Source of the DNA: an uncultured Cellvibrionales bacterium
GTDB lineage: Bacteria > Pseudomonadota > Gammaproteobacteria > Pseudomonadales > Cellvibrionaceae
NCBI GenBank assembly: GCA_913020395.1
Contig: CAJWCA010000009.1
Location: forward strand, 1 to 32,516
Direction: 5' to 3'
DNA length: 32,516 nucleotides
The translations under genes were made by a program, and so were the position numbers. Shown piece after piece: positions 2,926-14,219 of this stretch (the first letter of the stretch is position 1; each line of letters starts with the position of its first letter). The notes under the pieces were generated by a model. The model had not been told where the DNA came from, ran no database searches, and saw nothing but the letters and a program-made list of their open reading frames with translations.

Positions 2926-5222
2926 ACCAATATAAGGGGTGTTGGGGCGGGTTCAATGATCTCACCTATAATCGCGGCCTGGCTATATCCCGCTGACTTT
3001 AATCGCTCCAGGCAGCGTTTGCTGTTTTCCGGCGCGATGGTCGCCAGTAGGCCGCCCGACGTTTGGGGATCATACAAAATCTTGTGGGAATGTGTGGCTC
3101 CCGGTGACGGAGTAGCGCTCAATGAACCGGATTCAAACATGCGGCTGTTTTGATGGTGCAGGCTGCTCTCAAACCCTCTTTCAAAACAGGCCAATGCCCC
3201 TGGCAAGAGCGGTAAGTTCTCAAGTGTAATTTGCGCGCTCAGGGGGCTCACGCTTCGATCGTCCGGCTTGAGCATTTCTAATAAATGGCCGGCCAAACCA
3301 AAACCCGTTACGTCGGTACAGGCACTGGAGTGGTTCTGAAAAAGAAGCTCCGCAGCTGCACGGTTGGATTGCAGCATTGCCGCGGTTGCCTCTTGAATCC
3401 AGTGCCCGTCACTTTGCAAGTGTCCGTGGGCTGCGAATAACACACCGGTACCAAGAGCTTGTGTCAAGATGAGCTGATCGCCGACACGAGGGCGGTTTTT
3501 TCGAGTGACTTCCGTGGCTTTGGCTGTGCCGTTCACACTGAAACCCACACTCATTTCGGCGCCTTCAGACGTGTGTCCGCCTATAAGAGCGCAGTTATTC
3601 TCATTCAGCACCTTAAGGGCACCACTCATAACTTGAAATAAATCCCGCTCTACAATGCGAGCCGCAGAATAGGGTAGTGTGACAATAGCCAGTGCGCTGT
3701 GCGCTTTTGCATTCATTGCAAATAAGTCGCTTAATGCGTGGTTGGCAGCAATTTCGCCCAGTACAAACGGGTCGTCAATCAAGGCACGAAAAACATCTAC
3801 GCTCTGTATCAATAGGTGGTCTGAAGGGAGAGTAATTGCGCTGGCGTCATCGGGGGTGTGTAGGCCTAGAATAACGTCATTACGTTCAACCGGATTCAAA
3901 CTTTTAATCACACGACTGAGAACATCGGCGCCGACTTTTGCACCACACCCTCCGCAGCGCATAGCAACGATCTTGTCATTTGGGTTCTCATCTGCCTGCT
4001 CTCGAATATGCTGGCTCACCTCCTGTGTGCCATGTGCTTGCATCTCAGTGGTTTGGAGCACTGTGAATTTCTTCATGAATTCACGGTCGATACGGTTTTT
4101 CCAGCGCCAGACCCAGGCGCCGGAAAGTGCGGGTAATCCTGAGCCGGGTTTGCAGGCAATAGCGCTTTTGTCTCCACAAGACAGTAAACTTAAAAATTGC
4201 TTTTGGGGTTTAAAGTGTTTGAGTTTTTCTCCCAGGCAAAATGCCTGAAGATTGTTGAACAGTGTAGGGCCCTGACGGACTGCGTAAACTCCAGCTCTTG
4301 GGCGCGGATAGTCTTGTTGTCGGGCTATGTCTCCCGCCGCAAATACAAATGGGTGACTAAGGGATTGCAGGGCATTGTTGAGCCAAATGAATCCTGCCTC
4401 GTCGCAATCCAGGCCTGAATTTTTTGGCCAGTCTGGCGTGGCCGCCTGTGTACACCAATATAAATGATCGGCCTGGAAGGTCTCGCCTTTCGCTCCAAAT
4501 TTAATACATAAACTGTCCTGCTCTGCAGGAGTTGACGTAGAGCGCTCGATCGACGTGATGTTTGAGAATTCATGGACTCGAATATCTCTCTGCCGAAAAG
4601 TATCGGCTACTTTCTGTTGAACGCTTGGTGGGTAATCCTCTGGCAAGCCGCTGTTCTTCTGAAACAGGTGAAAGCGGTGTTGATGTGAGCTATTGCGGCA
4701 TGAATATTGAAGTGCCATTGCCAATTCTGTACCAGCGGCGCCTCCTCCTACAATGGCGATGTCTTGGGCGCGGTGACTGGTTTCTAAGGCGCGGCGAACT
4801 GCTTGAAAGCGAGGATAAAACTGTGAAATGGGTTTTACCGGTATGGAGAATTCTTTGGCGCCCGGAACGGAATAGTCAGGGGTTATTCCAGTATTCATAG
4901 AGACAATGTCGAAAGCCATCGCACTGCGATTGTCAAAGTGTACCTGTTTGCTTTTGAGGTCAATGCTGCTAACCGGCGCCTGGATAAAGCGAGCGTGGGC
5001 AAATTGGCAAAGGCGGGCGAGGTCTATGTGAATGTCATCGACCGTGTAGTGACCGGCAATCAAGCCTGGCAGCATACCTGAATAAGGTGTTTTGACCTGC
5101 GGAGAAATCAATGTAAGGCGCACGCCAGGCAAGGGCTTCATTGCCCACATTTTTAATACCTGAACGTGGGCATGACCGCCGCCAAGTAGAAACACATCTA
5201 TATAGACTGGAGTGTTGTCCAT
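2922..5222 (-). CDS. selD: Selenide, water dikinase fused to an N-terminal FAD/NAD(P) oxidoreductase domain
   Basis: A two-domain protein of 766 aa. Residues 1 to about 400 form a pyridine nucleotide-disulfide oxidoreductase of the NDH-2-like type, with an early G-G-G-H-A-H dinucleotide-binding turn, a second G-G-G-A-A-G-T-E motif near residue 160 and a late F-A-A-G-D motif. From about residue 410 it is SelD, which makes selenophosphate from selenide and ATP. The G-G-C-G-A-K motif puts Cys426 and Lys429 at the positions of the essential Cys17 and Lys20 of E. coli SelD, so this is a Cys and not a Sec form. The ATG directly abuts the stop of mnmH upstream, so the two are surely cotranscribed. 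This fusion is known from other bacteria; the oxidoreductase may help supply reduced selenium, but that is inference. Confidence 0.95.
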   Translation of the reverse strand: MDNTPVYIDVFLLGGGHAHVQVLKMWAMKPLPGVRLTLISPQVKTPYSGMLPGLIAGHYTVDDIHIDLARLCQFAHARFIQAPVSSIDLKSKQVHFDNRSAMAFDIVSMNTGITPDYSVPGAKEFSIPVKPISQFYPRFQAVRRALETSHRAQDIAIVGGGAAGTELAMALQYSCRNSSHQHRFHLFQKNSGLPEDYPPSVQQKVADTFRQRDIRVHEFSNITSIERSTSTPAEQDSLCIKFGAKGETFQADHLYWCTQAATPDWPKNSGLDCDEAGFIWLNNALQSLSHPFVFAAGDIARQQDYPRPRAGVYAVRQGPTLFNNLQAFCLGEKLKHFKPQKQFLSLLSCGDKSAIACKPGSGLPALSGAWVWRWKNRIDREFMKKFTVLQTTEMQAHGTQEVSQHIREQADENPNDKIVAMRCGGCGAKVGADVLSRVIKSLNPVERNDVILGLHTPDDASAITLPSDHLLIQSVDVFRALIDDPFVLGEIAANHALSDLFAMNAKAHSALAIVTLPYSAARIVERDLFQVMSGALKVLNENNCALIGGHTSEGAEMSVGFSVNGTAKATEVTRKNRPRVGDQLILTQALGTGVLFAAHGHLQSDGHWIQEATAAMLQSNRAAAELLFQNHSSACTDVTGFGLAGHLLEMLKPDDRSVSPLSAQITLENLPLLPGALACFERGFESSLHHQNSRMFESGSLSATPSPGATHSHKILYDPQTSGGLLATIAPENSKRCLERLKSAGYSQAAIIGEIIEPAPTPLILV

Positions 5223-6326: not shown

Positions 6327-6394
6327 GGGGGTGCTCCACTGTGAATGTGGGGCAGTTTATCAGAAACCCGGTGGGCAGCAGTATAGATGGGTGT

Positions 6395-6426
6395 AAAAAA
6401 GGCGATGCTTTCACATCGCCTTTTTT
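6395..6426 (-). terminator. Rho-independent terminator of glnA
   Basis: The hairpin has GGCGATG/CATCGCC arms (6401-6407 and 6414-6420), flanked by A6 on the left and T6 on the right. It therefore has a U-tract in either direction. It lies 67 bases beyond the glnA stop and upstream of mnmH, which it insulates from glnA transcription. Confidence 0.9.
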
Positions 6427-6492
6427 AGAGATCCGGTTCCCTCCGTGCTGCTTTGCTCGCAGGTGCAAGCAAAGCTTGGGAGAAAAACGAAA

Positions 6493-9998: not shown

Positions 9999-11807
9999 GT
10001 GATCGAAAATATTCGTAATATCGCCATTATTGCCCACGTTGACCACGGTAAAACAACCCTGGTTGATAAGCTTCTAAGCCAGTCAGGCACCCTTGACCGC
10101 AAGGATGAGGGGGCAGAGCGCATCATGGACTCCAATGATCAGGAGCGTGAGCGCGGCATTACCATTCTGGCTAAAAACACAGCGATCAACTGGGGTAAGT
10201 ACCACTTCAACATTGTGGACACACCGGGTCACGCCGATTTCGGTGGCGAAGTTGAGCGAGTATTGTCGATGGTCGATTCCGTATTGTTGCTGGTTGATGC
10301 AGTAGACGGACCCATGCCACAAACGCGTTTTGTGACCTCCAAAGCTTTTGAGCAGGGCCTGAAGCCTATTGTTGTGGTCAACAAAGTTGACCGCCCTGGT
10401 GCTCGCCCCGATTGGGTTATCGACCAGGTGTTTGATCTTTTTGATCGACTGGGCGCCAGCGATGAGCAGTTGGACTTCCCCATTATTTATGCCTCTGCCA
10501 TTAATGGCATTGCAGGTCCCGAAGCCGATGACCTGGCTGAGGACATGACACCTCTGTTTGAGATGATTGCAGAGCGAGTGCCCGCGCCTGAAGTTGACCC
10601 GGGCGCGCCCTTTCAAATGCAAATATCTGCGCTGGACTATGACAGCTATGTTGGCGTGATCGGTGTAGGTCGTATTACCCGCGGCACCCTGAAACCTAAT
10701 CAGCAGGTGATTGTGGCGGGGCCAGATGGCAAGGAACGCAAAGGCAAGGTGCTGAATGTTCGCGGGTATCTTGGGCTGGATCGCATTGATACACCCGAGG
10801 CCAGTGCGGGTGATATTGTTTGTATTAACGGTATTGATCGCCTCGGTATTTCCGACACACTTTGCGACCCTGACAATGTAGAAGCTATGCCTGCGCTGTC
10901 TGTGGATGAGCCTACTGTGAGCATGACCTTTATGGTTAACAACTCACCCTTCGCCGGCCTGGAAGGTAAGTACGTAACTTCGCGTAATATTAAAGATCGC
11001 TTGGAGCAGGAGCTGATCCACAACGTTGCCTTGCGTGTAGAAGAGGGCGATAGCCCAGAGAAATTCAAAGTATCGGGCCGGGGTGAATTGCACCTGTCCG
11101 TACTCATCGAAACGATGCGCCGTGAAGGTTTTGAGCTGGCAGTTTCCCGTGCGGAAGTAGTGCGCCGCGAAATTGATGGTGTTATGCAAGAGCCTTATGA
11201 GGCGGTTGTTATTGATGTGGAAGACGAACATCAAGGTTCAATCATGGAAGAGTTTGGCCTTCGCAAGGGTGAGCTGACTAACATGGAGCTGGATGGGAAA
11301 GGACGCGTGAAACTTGAATTCATCGTCCCTTCTCGCGGCCTGATTGGTTTCAGGGGACAGTTCCTCACTATGACCTCCGGCTCCGGTATCATGACAAGCG
11401 TATTTGATCACTACGGTGAAGTGAAAGAAGGCGATGTAGCCAAACGCCAGAATGGTGTAATGGTGTCGATGGCGAAAGGCAAAACAGCCAGTTATGGTCT
11501 GTTTACCTTGCAGGATCGAGGTCGACTCTTTAAGGGCCACGCTGAAGACGTTTATGAAGGTCAGATTATCGGCATTCACTCTCGCAGTAATGACCTGGCA
11601 GTTAACCCAACCAAGGGGAAGCAGCTTACCAATGTTCGCGCATCCGGCACGGACGAGGCGCTGGTGTTAACGCCACCTATTCGTCACACACTTGAGCAAG
11701 CGCTGGAATTTATTGAAGATGATGAGCTGGTTGAAGTGACACCAGAATCTATTCGTCTGCGTAAGAAGTTCCTGACTGAAAACGAGCGCAAGCGCAACAA
11801 AAGATAA
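9999..11807 (+). CDS. typA: Translational GTPase TypA/BipA
   Basis: A ribosome-associated GTPase of the EF-G family, involved in 50S assembly and stress or cold adaptation. The G domain shows A-H-V-D-H-G-K-T-T (G1) near residue 11, the R-G-I-T-I switch region, D-T-P-G-H (G3) and N-K-V-D (G4). It is followed by the beta-barrel, EF-G-like and TypA-specific C-terminal domains, including S-R-G-L-I-G-F-R-G. Length (602 aa) is typical. The start is a GTG, and the following residues I-E-N-I-R-N-I-A match the E. coli N-terminus. Only a weak purine-rich RBS precedes it. Confidence 0.97.
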
Positions 11808-11816
11808 ATGAGCCGG

Positions 11817-11836
11817 CCGGGCCCATTGGGGTCCGG
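11817..11836. terminator. Weak hairpin between convergent typA and the WYL regulator
   Basis: CCGGGCCC and GGGTCCGG pair (one G-U) around a 4-base loop just after the typA stop. No T-tract follows, so intrinsic termination is doubtful. It may stabilise the mRNA 3' end. Confidence 0.35.
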
Positions 11837-11870
11837 TCCCGTTCAGTGCAAACTCATGATTGCCAGAACG

Positions 11871-12584
11871 TCACTCCGTGTTACCTCCCTTAACTTTTTC
11901 CTGCAGCGCTCTGTATCTGGCGAGATAGTGATTGAGACTCATGTCTTCACGGGTTGAAAAGGTTCTTTCCTGCTCTTCAAGGTTCATGATTCTGTCGAGT
12001 CGAAACTCGCGATAGTCCTCTCTTAGTTCGCACCACGCGATCATCGTCCAGGTCTTGCCCCAAAACACCAGCCCCAAGGGTAAAAGTACACGGGTAGAAA
12101 CTTCGCCGTCTGCGCGCTGATACGTAATCTGAATAGACTTCTTCCCTCGGATTGCTTTTCGAATAACACCGCTATGGGCGGTGAGTTTTTTGCCTGCACC
12201 AAAGTCGGGCACTTGAATGCTGGGGTCTTCTTCTAGGTCTCGCAATCCGTCCGGCAGCACCGCAAGGATTTTCTGCATCGCGCTATTTGCCGCGCCGGCC
12301 ATTTGTTTGTCGCCCCAGGCACGTATCATGCGAGCACCCAGCAAAAGTGCTTCTACTTCGTCGCGATCAAACATCAGTGGGGGCAGTTGAAAGTGGCGCT
12401 GGAGTCGGTAGCCGACGCCGGCTTCTCCCTCTATCGGTACACCTGACAAAGAAAGTGCCTGCATATCGCGATAAATGGTGCGCTCCGACACCTCGAGGAT
12501 TTCGCCGAGCTGCCTGGCGGTTAAAACCTGCCGACGATTTCTCAAGACATTGAGAAGTTGGAATAAGCGCTCTGCTCGCCGCAT
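11871..12584 (-). CDS. YafY-type transcriptional regulator (HTH + WYL domain)
   Basis: A DNA-binding regulator of 237 aa. The N-terminal HTH_11 winged helix includes S-E-R-T-I-Y-R-D-M-Q-A-L, which is typical of the YafY/DeoR-like group. A WYL ligand-sensing domain follows from about residue 130 to 210. The ATG at 12584 is chosen because family members begin directly with the R-R-A-E-R-L-F sequence; the frame runs open to 12713, but that extension overlaps the 3' end of the next gene and has no family-like sequence. AGGA lies about 11 bases upstream of the ATG. The ligand is unknown. The upstream same-strand ABM-like gene is the obvious candidate partner or target. Confidence 0.88.
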   Translation of the reverse strand: MRRAERLFQLLNVLRNRRQVLTARQLGEILEVSERTIYRDMQALSLSGVPIEGEAGVGYRLQRHFQLPPLMFDRDEVEALLLGARMIRAWGDKQMAGAANSAMQKILAVLPDGLRDLEEDPSIQVPDFGAGKKLTAHSGVIRKAIRGKKSIQITYQRADGEVSTRVLLPLGLVFWGKTWTMIAWCELREDYREFRLDRIMNLEEQERTFSTREDMSLNHYLARYRALQEKVKGGNTE

Positions 12585-12625
12585 GGGTGTTTGGATCCTG
12601 TTTACGTTGAGGCGAGCATAAAACA

Positions 12626-12670
12626 CTTCGACAAAAGATGGCACCCCGTAGAGTGTGGCTTTTGTCGAAG
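12626..12670 (-). repeat. Perfect 12-base inverted repeat with nested UNCG hairpin
   Basis: CTTCGACAAAAG (12626-12637) and CTTTTGTCGAAG (12659-12670) are exact inverse complements. Read on the minus strand, the 21-base spacer holds a second stem, CACTC/GGGTG, closing a TACG loop (UNCG tetraloop type). It starts 12 bases after the ABM-like gene stop and is followed by TGTTTTATG. It could be that gene's terminator, or an attenuator or operator for the WYL regulator 42 bases further on. Confidence 0.7.
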
Positions 12671-12682
12671 CTTGTGGCTCGA

Positions 12683-13012
12683 TCAGGCGGCTTCTGCATC
12701 GCCCATGGTGCAAGCGACGCTCACAATATCGGCCTTAGTCACCACAACAGAGGCAGGATCGATTAACATCATAAACTGCCCGGCCTCTTCAAATTGCTCA
12801 AACCGCCCCTCCATCGCCTCCGCCGCGGCGCGATCGGTGAAGTAGAAAGAATCCAGCCACAGGCCGTCTTCCTGGCGAGAGAGTGAGCGGTACAGGAAGC
12901 CGGTCTGAGACTTCATAAAGCTATCCATTTTCTCGCTGGTGGCGAGAAAGCTCGATTCATTGGTTTTGTCAGCCAGTTTAAATTGATACATTTTTACAAA
13001 TTGTTCGGTCAT
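12683..13012 (-). CDS. Small ABM-like protein of unknown function (109 aa)
   Basis: A soluble 109-residue protein. The pattern (strand with M-Y-Q-F-K-L, helix, G-F-L-Y-R-S, D-S-F-Y-F-T-D, A-A-A-E-A-M) resembles a dimeric alpha+beta barrel of the antibiotic-biosynthesis-monooxygenase/EthD type. This is a fold-level impression, not a firm family call, and no substrate can be named. The ATG at 13012 has AAGGAAA at a good distance, so it is preferred to the second Met. It is read in the same direction as the WYL regulator downstream; such regulators often control an adjacent small enzyme. A perfect palindrome at 13068-13091 lies in its promoter region. Confidence 0.75.
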   Translation of the reverse strand: MTEQFVKMYQFKLADKTNESSFLATSEKMDSFMKSQTGFLYRSLSRQEDGLWLDSFYFTDRAAAEAMEGRFEQFEEAGQFMMLIDPASVVVTKADIVSVACTMGDAEAA

Positions 13013-13067
13013 TGATCATTTCCTTTTGAAATAGCGGTATTGATGAGTGGCTTATGGTAGGGCAGGG

Positions 13068-13091
13068 CTACTGACAGCGTTGTGTCAGTAG
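13068..13091. promoter_or_regulatory. Palindromic candidate operator upstream of the ABM-like gene
   Basis: CTACTGACA-N6-TGTCAGTAG is an exact 9-base inverted repeat with a 6-base spacer (centre-to-centre 15 bases). It sits 56-79 bases upstream of the ABM-like start. The size fits a dimeric repressor. The nearby WYL regulator is the natural candidate to bind it; this is inference. Confidence 0.6.
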
Positions 13092-13262
13092 TGTTTGGTG
13101 TGCGTGTTTTAATCGCCTTTGGTTGTATCCGGGGGTGTTGATATTTCCGAATAAGGAAAAGGGCTAAAGCAGTTGTTGTTGTTGAGCAAGATATGGCAAG
13201 GTGTTGTTTTGCGGTTTCCCAAGGCGAGCTATGAAACCGTCAGGCTACACTAAGGCAAATTC

Positions 13263-14219
13263 ATGTTAGTTCAATACCCGGAAATTAAACCCTTTAGTAC
13301 TCGGCAATTGCAGGTAGACCCCGTACATACACTTTATATAGAAGAGAGCGGGGAGCCGGAGGGCATTCCCGTGATTTTTGTTCACGGTGGGCCGGGTGGG
13401 GGCAGTTCAAAAACTGACCGCTGTTTTTTTGACCCCGAAAAATATCGCATCATCGTTTTTGATCAGCGCGGCTCGGGGCGCTCAACTCCCCACGCGGAGT
13501 TGAAAGATAATACGAGTGAACACCTTGTTGCTGATATTGAGCTGATTAGAACCACACTTGGCATTGAACGCTGGGTATTGTTTGGGGGCTCCTGGGGTTC
13601 AACCTTGAGTCTGCTCTATGCCCAGGCGTACCCTGAGCGGGTAATGGGCCTGATTCTCAGGGGAATCTTTTTATGTCGACAGCAGGACTTTCACTGGTTG
13701 TTTCAGGAGGGGGCCAGTCGTATTTTCCCCGATTATTGGGAGGATTTTCTCAAGCCAATTCCCGAATCAGAGCGCGGTGATTTGATGCAGGCCTATTACA
13801 GTCGCCTGACCGGGAAAAATGAACTCGCAAAAATGGCCGCTGCAAAAGCCTGGTCCCTGTGGGAGGGTCGATGTGCCACTCTCCGGCCGAGCGCCAAAGT
13901 GGTTGATGCTTTTGCCGATCCCCACAAGGCCATGTCACTCGCGCGCATCGAAGCACACTATTTTGTTAATGGTGGTTTCATTGAGGAAAACCAGATTTTG
14001 AAAAACGCCTCTAGCCTTGAGGGCATCCCCGGTATCATTGTGCACGGTCGTTACGACATGGTTTGCACAATCGACAATGCCCAGAGTTTACACCGCCACT
14101 GGCCGGACTCCGAGTTGCACATTATTCGGGACGCGGGTCATTCGTCTTCTGAGCCCGGTATCGTGGATGGGCTCATTCGGGCGACGCGGGATATGTCGCA
14201 GCGGTTTGAGCAGCGCTAA
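13263..14219 (+). CDS. pip: Prolyl iminopeptidase
   Basis: An alpha/beta-hydrolase of peptidase family S33 that removes N-terminal proline from peptides; cytoplasmic. The oxyanion motif H-G-G-P-G-G is at residues 41-46 and the nucleophile Ser110 in G-G-S-W-G-S. Asp265 (R-Y-D-M-V-C) and His293 (D-A-G-H-S) complete the triad. F-D-Q-R-G-S-G-R-S is the other hallmark. Length 318 aa is normal. dtd begins 16 bases downstream and is probably cotranscribed; the pip-dtd pair is also seen in Pseudomonas. Confidence 0.95.

Follow-up and report, generated by a model that had tools for sequence, protein, structure and literature searches.

Intercistronic stem-loop and conserved upstream palindrome at an ABM-type enzyme and WYL regulator gene pair of an uncultured Cellvibrionales bacterium

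The gene pair and the hairpin in its spacer

The window, a stretch of 32,516 nucleotides from an uncultured Cellvibrionales bacterium (contig CAJWCA010000009.1), carries on its minus strand a small enzyme-like gene with an ABM-type dimeric alpha-beta-barrel fold (12683-13012), followed by a gene for a regulator with HTH_11 and WYL domains (11871-12584). A two-tier hairpin lies in the spacer between them (12626-12670, minus strand). The enzyme gene product was given no name by Pfam or NCBIfam, and its profile matches were weak, namely, to Pfam ABM in 2 of 13 enzyme homologues (best E 0.031) and to SnoaB (E 0.027). Its AlphaFold2 model (pLDDT 86.7) gave 65 PDB matches at E ≤ 0.001, headed by 1y0h, 2qyc and 3kg1 SnoaB, and these matches support the ABM-type label as a predicted fold. 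The regulator was recognized by domain search and by alignment to relatives, in which the N-terminus starting at the ATG at 12584 was also alignable. Both neighbors of the hairpin are thus as named in an earlier note made from the letters of the window, an ABM-like gene and its regulator.

Read on the minus strand from 12670 to 12626, the hairpin is CTTCGACAAAAG-CCA-CACTC-UACG-GGGTG-CCAT-CTTTTGTCGAAG, followed by TGTTTTATG. The outer stem (12659-12670 with 12626-12637) consists of 12 perfect base pairs and is AU-rich, with five G-C pairs; the inner stem (12651-12655 with 12642-12646) has 5 bp including one G-U pair and ends in a C-G closed UACG loop (12647-12650), and the internal loop is uneven, with 3 nt on one side and 4 nt on the other. 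An extra G-U pair, 12671/12625, was added by the predicted fold. The 101-nt RNA of the minus strand from 12600 to 12700 folded at -33.5 kcal/mol (z -3.53, with 2 of 200 shuffles equally good), and the plus strand of the hairpin region gave z -2.38. Sequence and fold therefore agree with the earlier description of a perfect 12-base stem, a 5-base inner stem and a C(UACG)G loop on the minus strand. A third tier overlooked in that description, CGAGC (12677-12681) paired with GCTCG (12613-12617), was predicted by the fold and its centroid; it clamps the hairpin together with the short U-run (12613-12681) and may be due to chance.

The palindrome upstream of the enzyme gene

The minus strand carries, ahead of the enzyme gene, the palindrome CTACTGACA-N6-TGTCAGTAG (13068-13091), which recurs in relatives and is the putative site of the WYL regulator. 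A candidate -10 element, TACCAT (13054-13059, minus strand), follows 12 nt past its right TGTCA arm, and by our own reading no TTGACA-like -35 stands before TACCAT at 17 nt spacing. Among 49 regulator loci, a count from which L047 (the same record as G001) and the distant L055 were dropped, the core TGACA-N4-10-TGTCA was found upstream of the regulator start in 30, only beyond the regulator in 4 and nowhere in 15; a control palindrome with each arm reversed had 0 matches in the same 187,414 bases. Where the enzyme gene was recognized, the core lay 64-108 bases upstream of its start in 13 of 15 loci.

The enzyme gene was also followed in 36 loci, one per genome, drawn from the 30 of 46 profile matches that had loci and from the earlier set of 13, of which 7 were left out (6 already covered, and L010). 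The exact core was present 73-140 bases upstream of the profile match in 27, further upstream in 3 and absent from 6; in L010 (G014), outside this set, it lay 76 bases upstream. Three of the six core-less loci (G042, G056 and G191) have degenerate copies with scores of 14-16 of 18, against a background of 22 places in 400 kb at a score of at least 13 of 18. L136-L138 showed no palindrome, not even a degenerate one; a regulator match was either lacking from these loci or distant (28-29% identity) and on the opposite strand. The palindrome accompanies the enzyme gene even if the regulator is found on the opposite side of that gene (G004, G043, G488, G238 and G348) and in four of five enzyme loci with no regulator in the stretch examined (G388, G240, G267 and G176; not G457).

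The spacing of the candidate -10 element is shared as well. TAnnnT occurred 12 nt past the right arm in 20 of 27 non-redundant loci, compared to 7 at 11 nt and at most 4 at any other offset to 39; the tally held 32 rows before near-duplicates were removed, with three of the six core-less loci admitted by a relaxed right arm and the three loci with a far-upstream palindrome left out. With the -10 placed in this way, the palindrome spans about -44 to -21, and no -35 hexamer can be recognized. Judged from these sequence comparisons, the conserved control site at the locus is the palindrome at 13068-13091 and not the hairpin. It is probably bound by the operon's own WYL regulator, which we infer to act as an activator of this promoter.

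A similar layout is described in passages on SiwR, a WYL activator of Mycobacterium smegmatis (PMC10693628). According to these passages, the promoter of msmeg_1357-56 has a 19-bp imperfect palindrome between the -35 and -10 regions, and its -26 region is needed for activation. It is the palindrome at 13068-13091 with its -10-like element, and not the hairpin, that resembles this arrangement, and the likeness is one of layout, no TGACA or TGTCA letters being given in these passages. The described gene order differs, too, in that SiwR adjoins the two-gene DinB-like operon it activates, whereas here the regulator follows its presumed target (PMC10693628).

This recurrent arrangement, in which the palindrome is joined by a -10-like element at a fixed distance and a -35 is not apparent, links a widespread WYL regulator to small ABM-fold proteins in many genera, and offers a directly testable candidate binding site and regulon for this regulator group. 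Among the open-licence literature matches listed, none described a ligand or an operator for this group, and a search with the palindrome letters brought up only apparently unrelated papers. We regard the conserved WYL promoter as the more useful lead at this locus and the hairpin as routine.

Two further exact palindromes of the operator type (C39 and C125) and 12 places with one mismatch occur in the same genome; by our reading, the C39 copy lies inside an open reading frame resembling a TonB-dependent receptor and is probably due to chance. In L117 (G040), the enzyme-regulator pair is flanked by two such palindromes, of which the second closely precedes another ABM-type match that lies about 1.2 kb from the first match. 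In L028 and L032, a protein that we read as VOC/glyoxalase-type replaces the ABM-type protein before the same regulator, and the palindrome is still upstream. Another kind of palindrome, GACAACGTTGTC, was seen in L088 at 4213-4256 and 11015-11057 of one contig, each time twice about 20 nt apart; these resemble operators of a LacI-type regulator.

Similar hairpins in the genome and at the junction in relatives

The earlier note had presented the hairpin as a structure exceeding a usual terminator, an impression not supported by comparison with a sample of its genome. Perfect stems of at least 12 bp with loops of 3-30 numbered 21 in 432,516 bases, comprising the window and 20 stretches of its own genome, against 0 in each of three Markov-1 simulated sequences of that length; the hairpin is thus beyond chance, yet not rare in this genome. 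Its fold energy is unremarkable, since a 55-nt window folding as stably as its -22.4 kcal/mol, or more so, was found at 265 separate places in the same 432 kb (either strand, step 15). Among 100 codirectional spacers of 25-170 nt in the 432 kb, 13 reached z ≤ -2.5 and 9 reached z ≤ -3.5; among the 40 of 61-120 nt, these numbers were 9 and 7. The counts include the window's own hairpin (z -3.59 there), and the spacers are approximate because genes were called simply, as greedy ATG open reading frames of at least 100 codons. Several other strongly folding spacers of the genome were, by our reading, also without a U-tract.

Sequence search of the own genome (83.9% complete) returned one hairpin match, the hairpin itself, and the exact 12-mer arm occurs solely in its own two copies, so membership in a REP/MITE-like repeat family was rejected. 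The gapped arm pattern had 0 exact matches in viral contigs. Rfam gave 0 matches in the window at the gathering threshold, and in 12560-13100 at E ≤ 5 nothing on the hairpin; a sub-threshold rpfG match at 13036-13100 on the plus strand reached 19.7 bits, where the gathering score is 75.9.

Twenty-six distinct genomes have the enzyme gene followed by the regulator gene on one strand, 22 from the enzyme-locus survey plus G143 (with one stop in its regulator frame), G159 and two Motilimonas from an earlier comparison; G247, with a spacer of 781, was excluded from this count of adjacent pairs. The spacers range from overlapping genes to 167 nt, and 14 of the 26 are at most 45 nt or overlap. A fold with z ≤ -2.5 was present at the junction in six genomes, namely, the window's own, two Motilimonas species, G318, G197 and G304. 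The other 20 have no such fold or a spacer too short for the calculation. In G001, the only other genome of the same genus compared, the hairpin is absent (z 0.3 to 0.5) and the regulator is 74% identical. The pairing, whose loss in relatives the earlier note had named as evidence against its proposal, is therefore missing in G001 and in 20 of 26 pair-bearing genomes, which makes a conserved function less likely and leaves room for a species-specific one. The comparison with G001 shows, at the level of sequence, that the arrangement is dispensable within the genus and that the operon can do without the hairpin, which looks like an ordinary, species-specific intercistronic stem-loop.

No homologous copy of the hairpin was found among the sequences compared. 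Short-word BLAST among the six hairpin spacers gave no between-genera match at E ≤ 0.1; the matches were confined to the Motilimonas pair and to G197 with G304. The junction hairpins of the two Motilimonas (L050 and L051) and of G318 (L118) are strong, with z -4.3, -5.1 and -3.9, and have no U-tracts. The spacer of G304 (L135, 1352-1440) has been entered by a palindromic repeat of about 57 bp starting with GGGAGCCTCTAAAAA; this insert, absent from the spacer of G197, is a dispersed repeat that was matched 6 times in G304, counting the query, and 26 times in G197. A REP/MITE-like element thus sits in the same spacer of that relative, whereas the window's hairpin is single-copy.

Junction hairpins were seen in 5 of the 25 genomes other than the window's own, a share that does not significantly exceed background. 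An excess of convergent hairpins at the junction was unsupported, with 4 of 9 junctions against 9 of 40 background spacers (61-120 nt, z ≤ -2.5; Fisher P = 0.22) in a hand-tallied table in which the window's hairpin stands in both rows, the two Motilimonas count as one, G001 is a separate miss and G304 is left out as outside the length range. It is improbable, in our estimate, that the junction repeatedly gains unrelated hairpins (in this species, Motilimonas, G318 and G197/G304) through selection for less WYL protein relative to the enzyme, with palindrome insertion as one route to that ratio.

The main rival to a functional reading, on account of the absence from G001, is that the hairpin is a palindrome without a selected role, neutral or nearly so, in a spacer that tolerates it. 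The missing pairing in most pair-bearing genomes, the nonsignificant Fisher comparison and the repeat copy at the junction of G304 would all fit such an origin. Against it, a perfect 12-bp stem is unexpected by chance and would decay without selection unless it were recent, and its single copy in the genome does not mark it as a repeat. We consider the neutral origin possible, if rather unlikely.

Proposed role of the hairpin

The hairpin stem stands 12 nt downstream of the enzyme stop codon and 41 nt before the start codon of the regulator. No sigma-70-like promoter was found in 11500-14000, including the stretch before the regulator, by a sigma-70 consensus scan; the same scan missed the putative WYL promoter, so a regulator promoter that it did not list is conceivable. 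Since the putative promoter precedes the enzyme gene, the scan listed none for the regulator and the gap is only 41 nt, the regulator probably needs read-through. The two genes are likely to form one co-transcribed operon, in keeping with their shared strand, the recurrent gene order and the short or overlapping spacers of many relatives.

The U-tract after the stem, TGTTTTATG (12617-12625, minus strand), is weak, as the earlier note had held, with four consecutive U and a T-tail score of 2.82. The terminator score of the hairpin was -22.9. It was computed for 17 of the 26 hairpins of the perfect-stem survey, in which the two best reached +24.2 and +6.8; 14 of the 16 others were below zero on both strands, so the score separates hairpins poorly. 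A terminator scan gave 9 sites against 3.2 in shuffles and recorded here only the inner 5-bp stem (tail CCATCTTTTG), since the loop of the 12-bp stem is too long for that scan.

Taken with the absence of a separate regulator promoter from the scan, the weak U-tract suggests a leaky intercistronic attenuator, a 3'-end stabilizer or both. Transcription of the minus strand would start at the promoter ahead of the enzyme gene, where the operon's own WYL regulator would act on the palindrome, and run on through the regulator gene. The hairpin would form in the RNA just past the enzyme stop codon and, having a long stem and a poor U-tract, would end only some transcripts, with much read-through; it may also, or instead, protect the enzyme message from exonucleases attacking its 3' end. 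The regulator would as a result be made in a smaller amount than the enzyme. We hold this reading as a whole with moderate confidence, and partial termination or stabilization is a role that we infer for the hairpin. It retains, as the best reading, the attenuator and RNA-stability roles proposed in the earlier note, the third of whose proposals, a DNA operator, fell because the upstream palindrome is conserved and the hairpin is not.

A comparable case is described in passages on the ars1 operon of Bacillus sp. CDB3, in which an inverted repeat between arsC and arsD is reported as a probable attenuator with read-through, so that both a short and a long transcript arise; when the repeats were mutated, the long one increased 'more than one fold' (PMC4562236). 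The likeness is that an inverted repeat separates two genes within an operon. The first ars1 stem-loop, as these passages have it, is a GC-rich 23-bp stem accompanied by concentrated U, and it was examined by mutation (PMC4562236), whereas the stem in the window is AU-rich with a weak U-tract.

The position of the stem directly after the stop codon and the four U in a row of its tail would also suit complete intrinsic termination after the enzyme gene, the regulator then having its own promoter. We think this improbable. The score of -22.9 is far from the two best of the 17, for what this poorly separating measure is worth, the scan found no promoter-like site before the regulator, and relatives' spacers at 14 of the 26 junctions, at most 45 nt or overlapping, leave little room for one. 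That the 12-bp inverted repeat is instead a DNA operator for the WYL regulator was rejected as very improbable: the repeat adjoins the regulator gene with arm centers 33 bp apart, but no further copy of its exact arm is present in the genome and the orthologous places in most relatives lack the hairpin, whereas a different palindrome, that at 13068-13091, recurs upstream of the enzyme gene.

Elsewhere in the window, a perfect 14-bp stem at 6394-6427, with A and T runs within its arms, has the shape of a two-way terminator.
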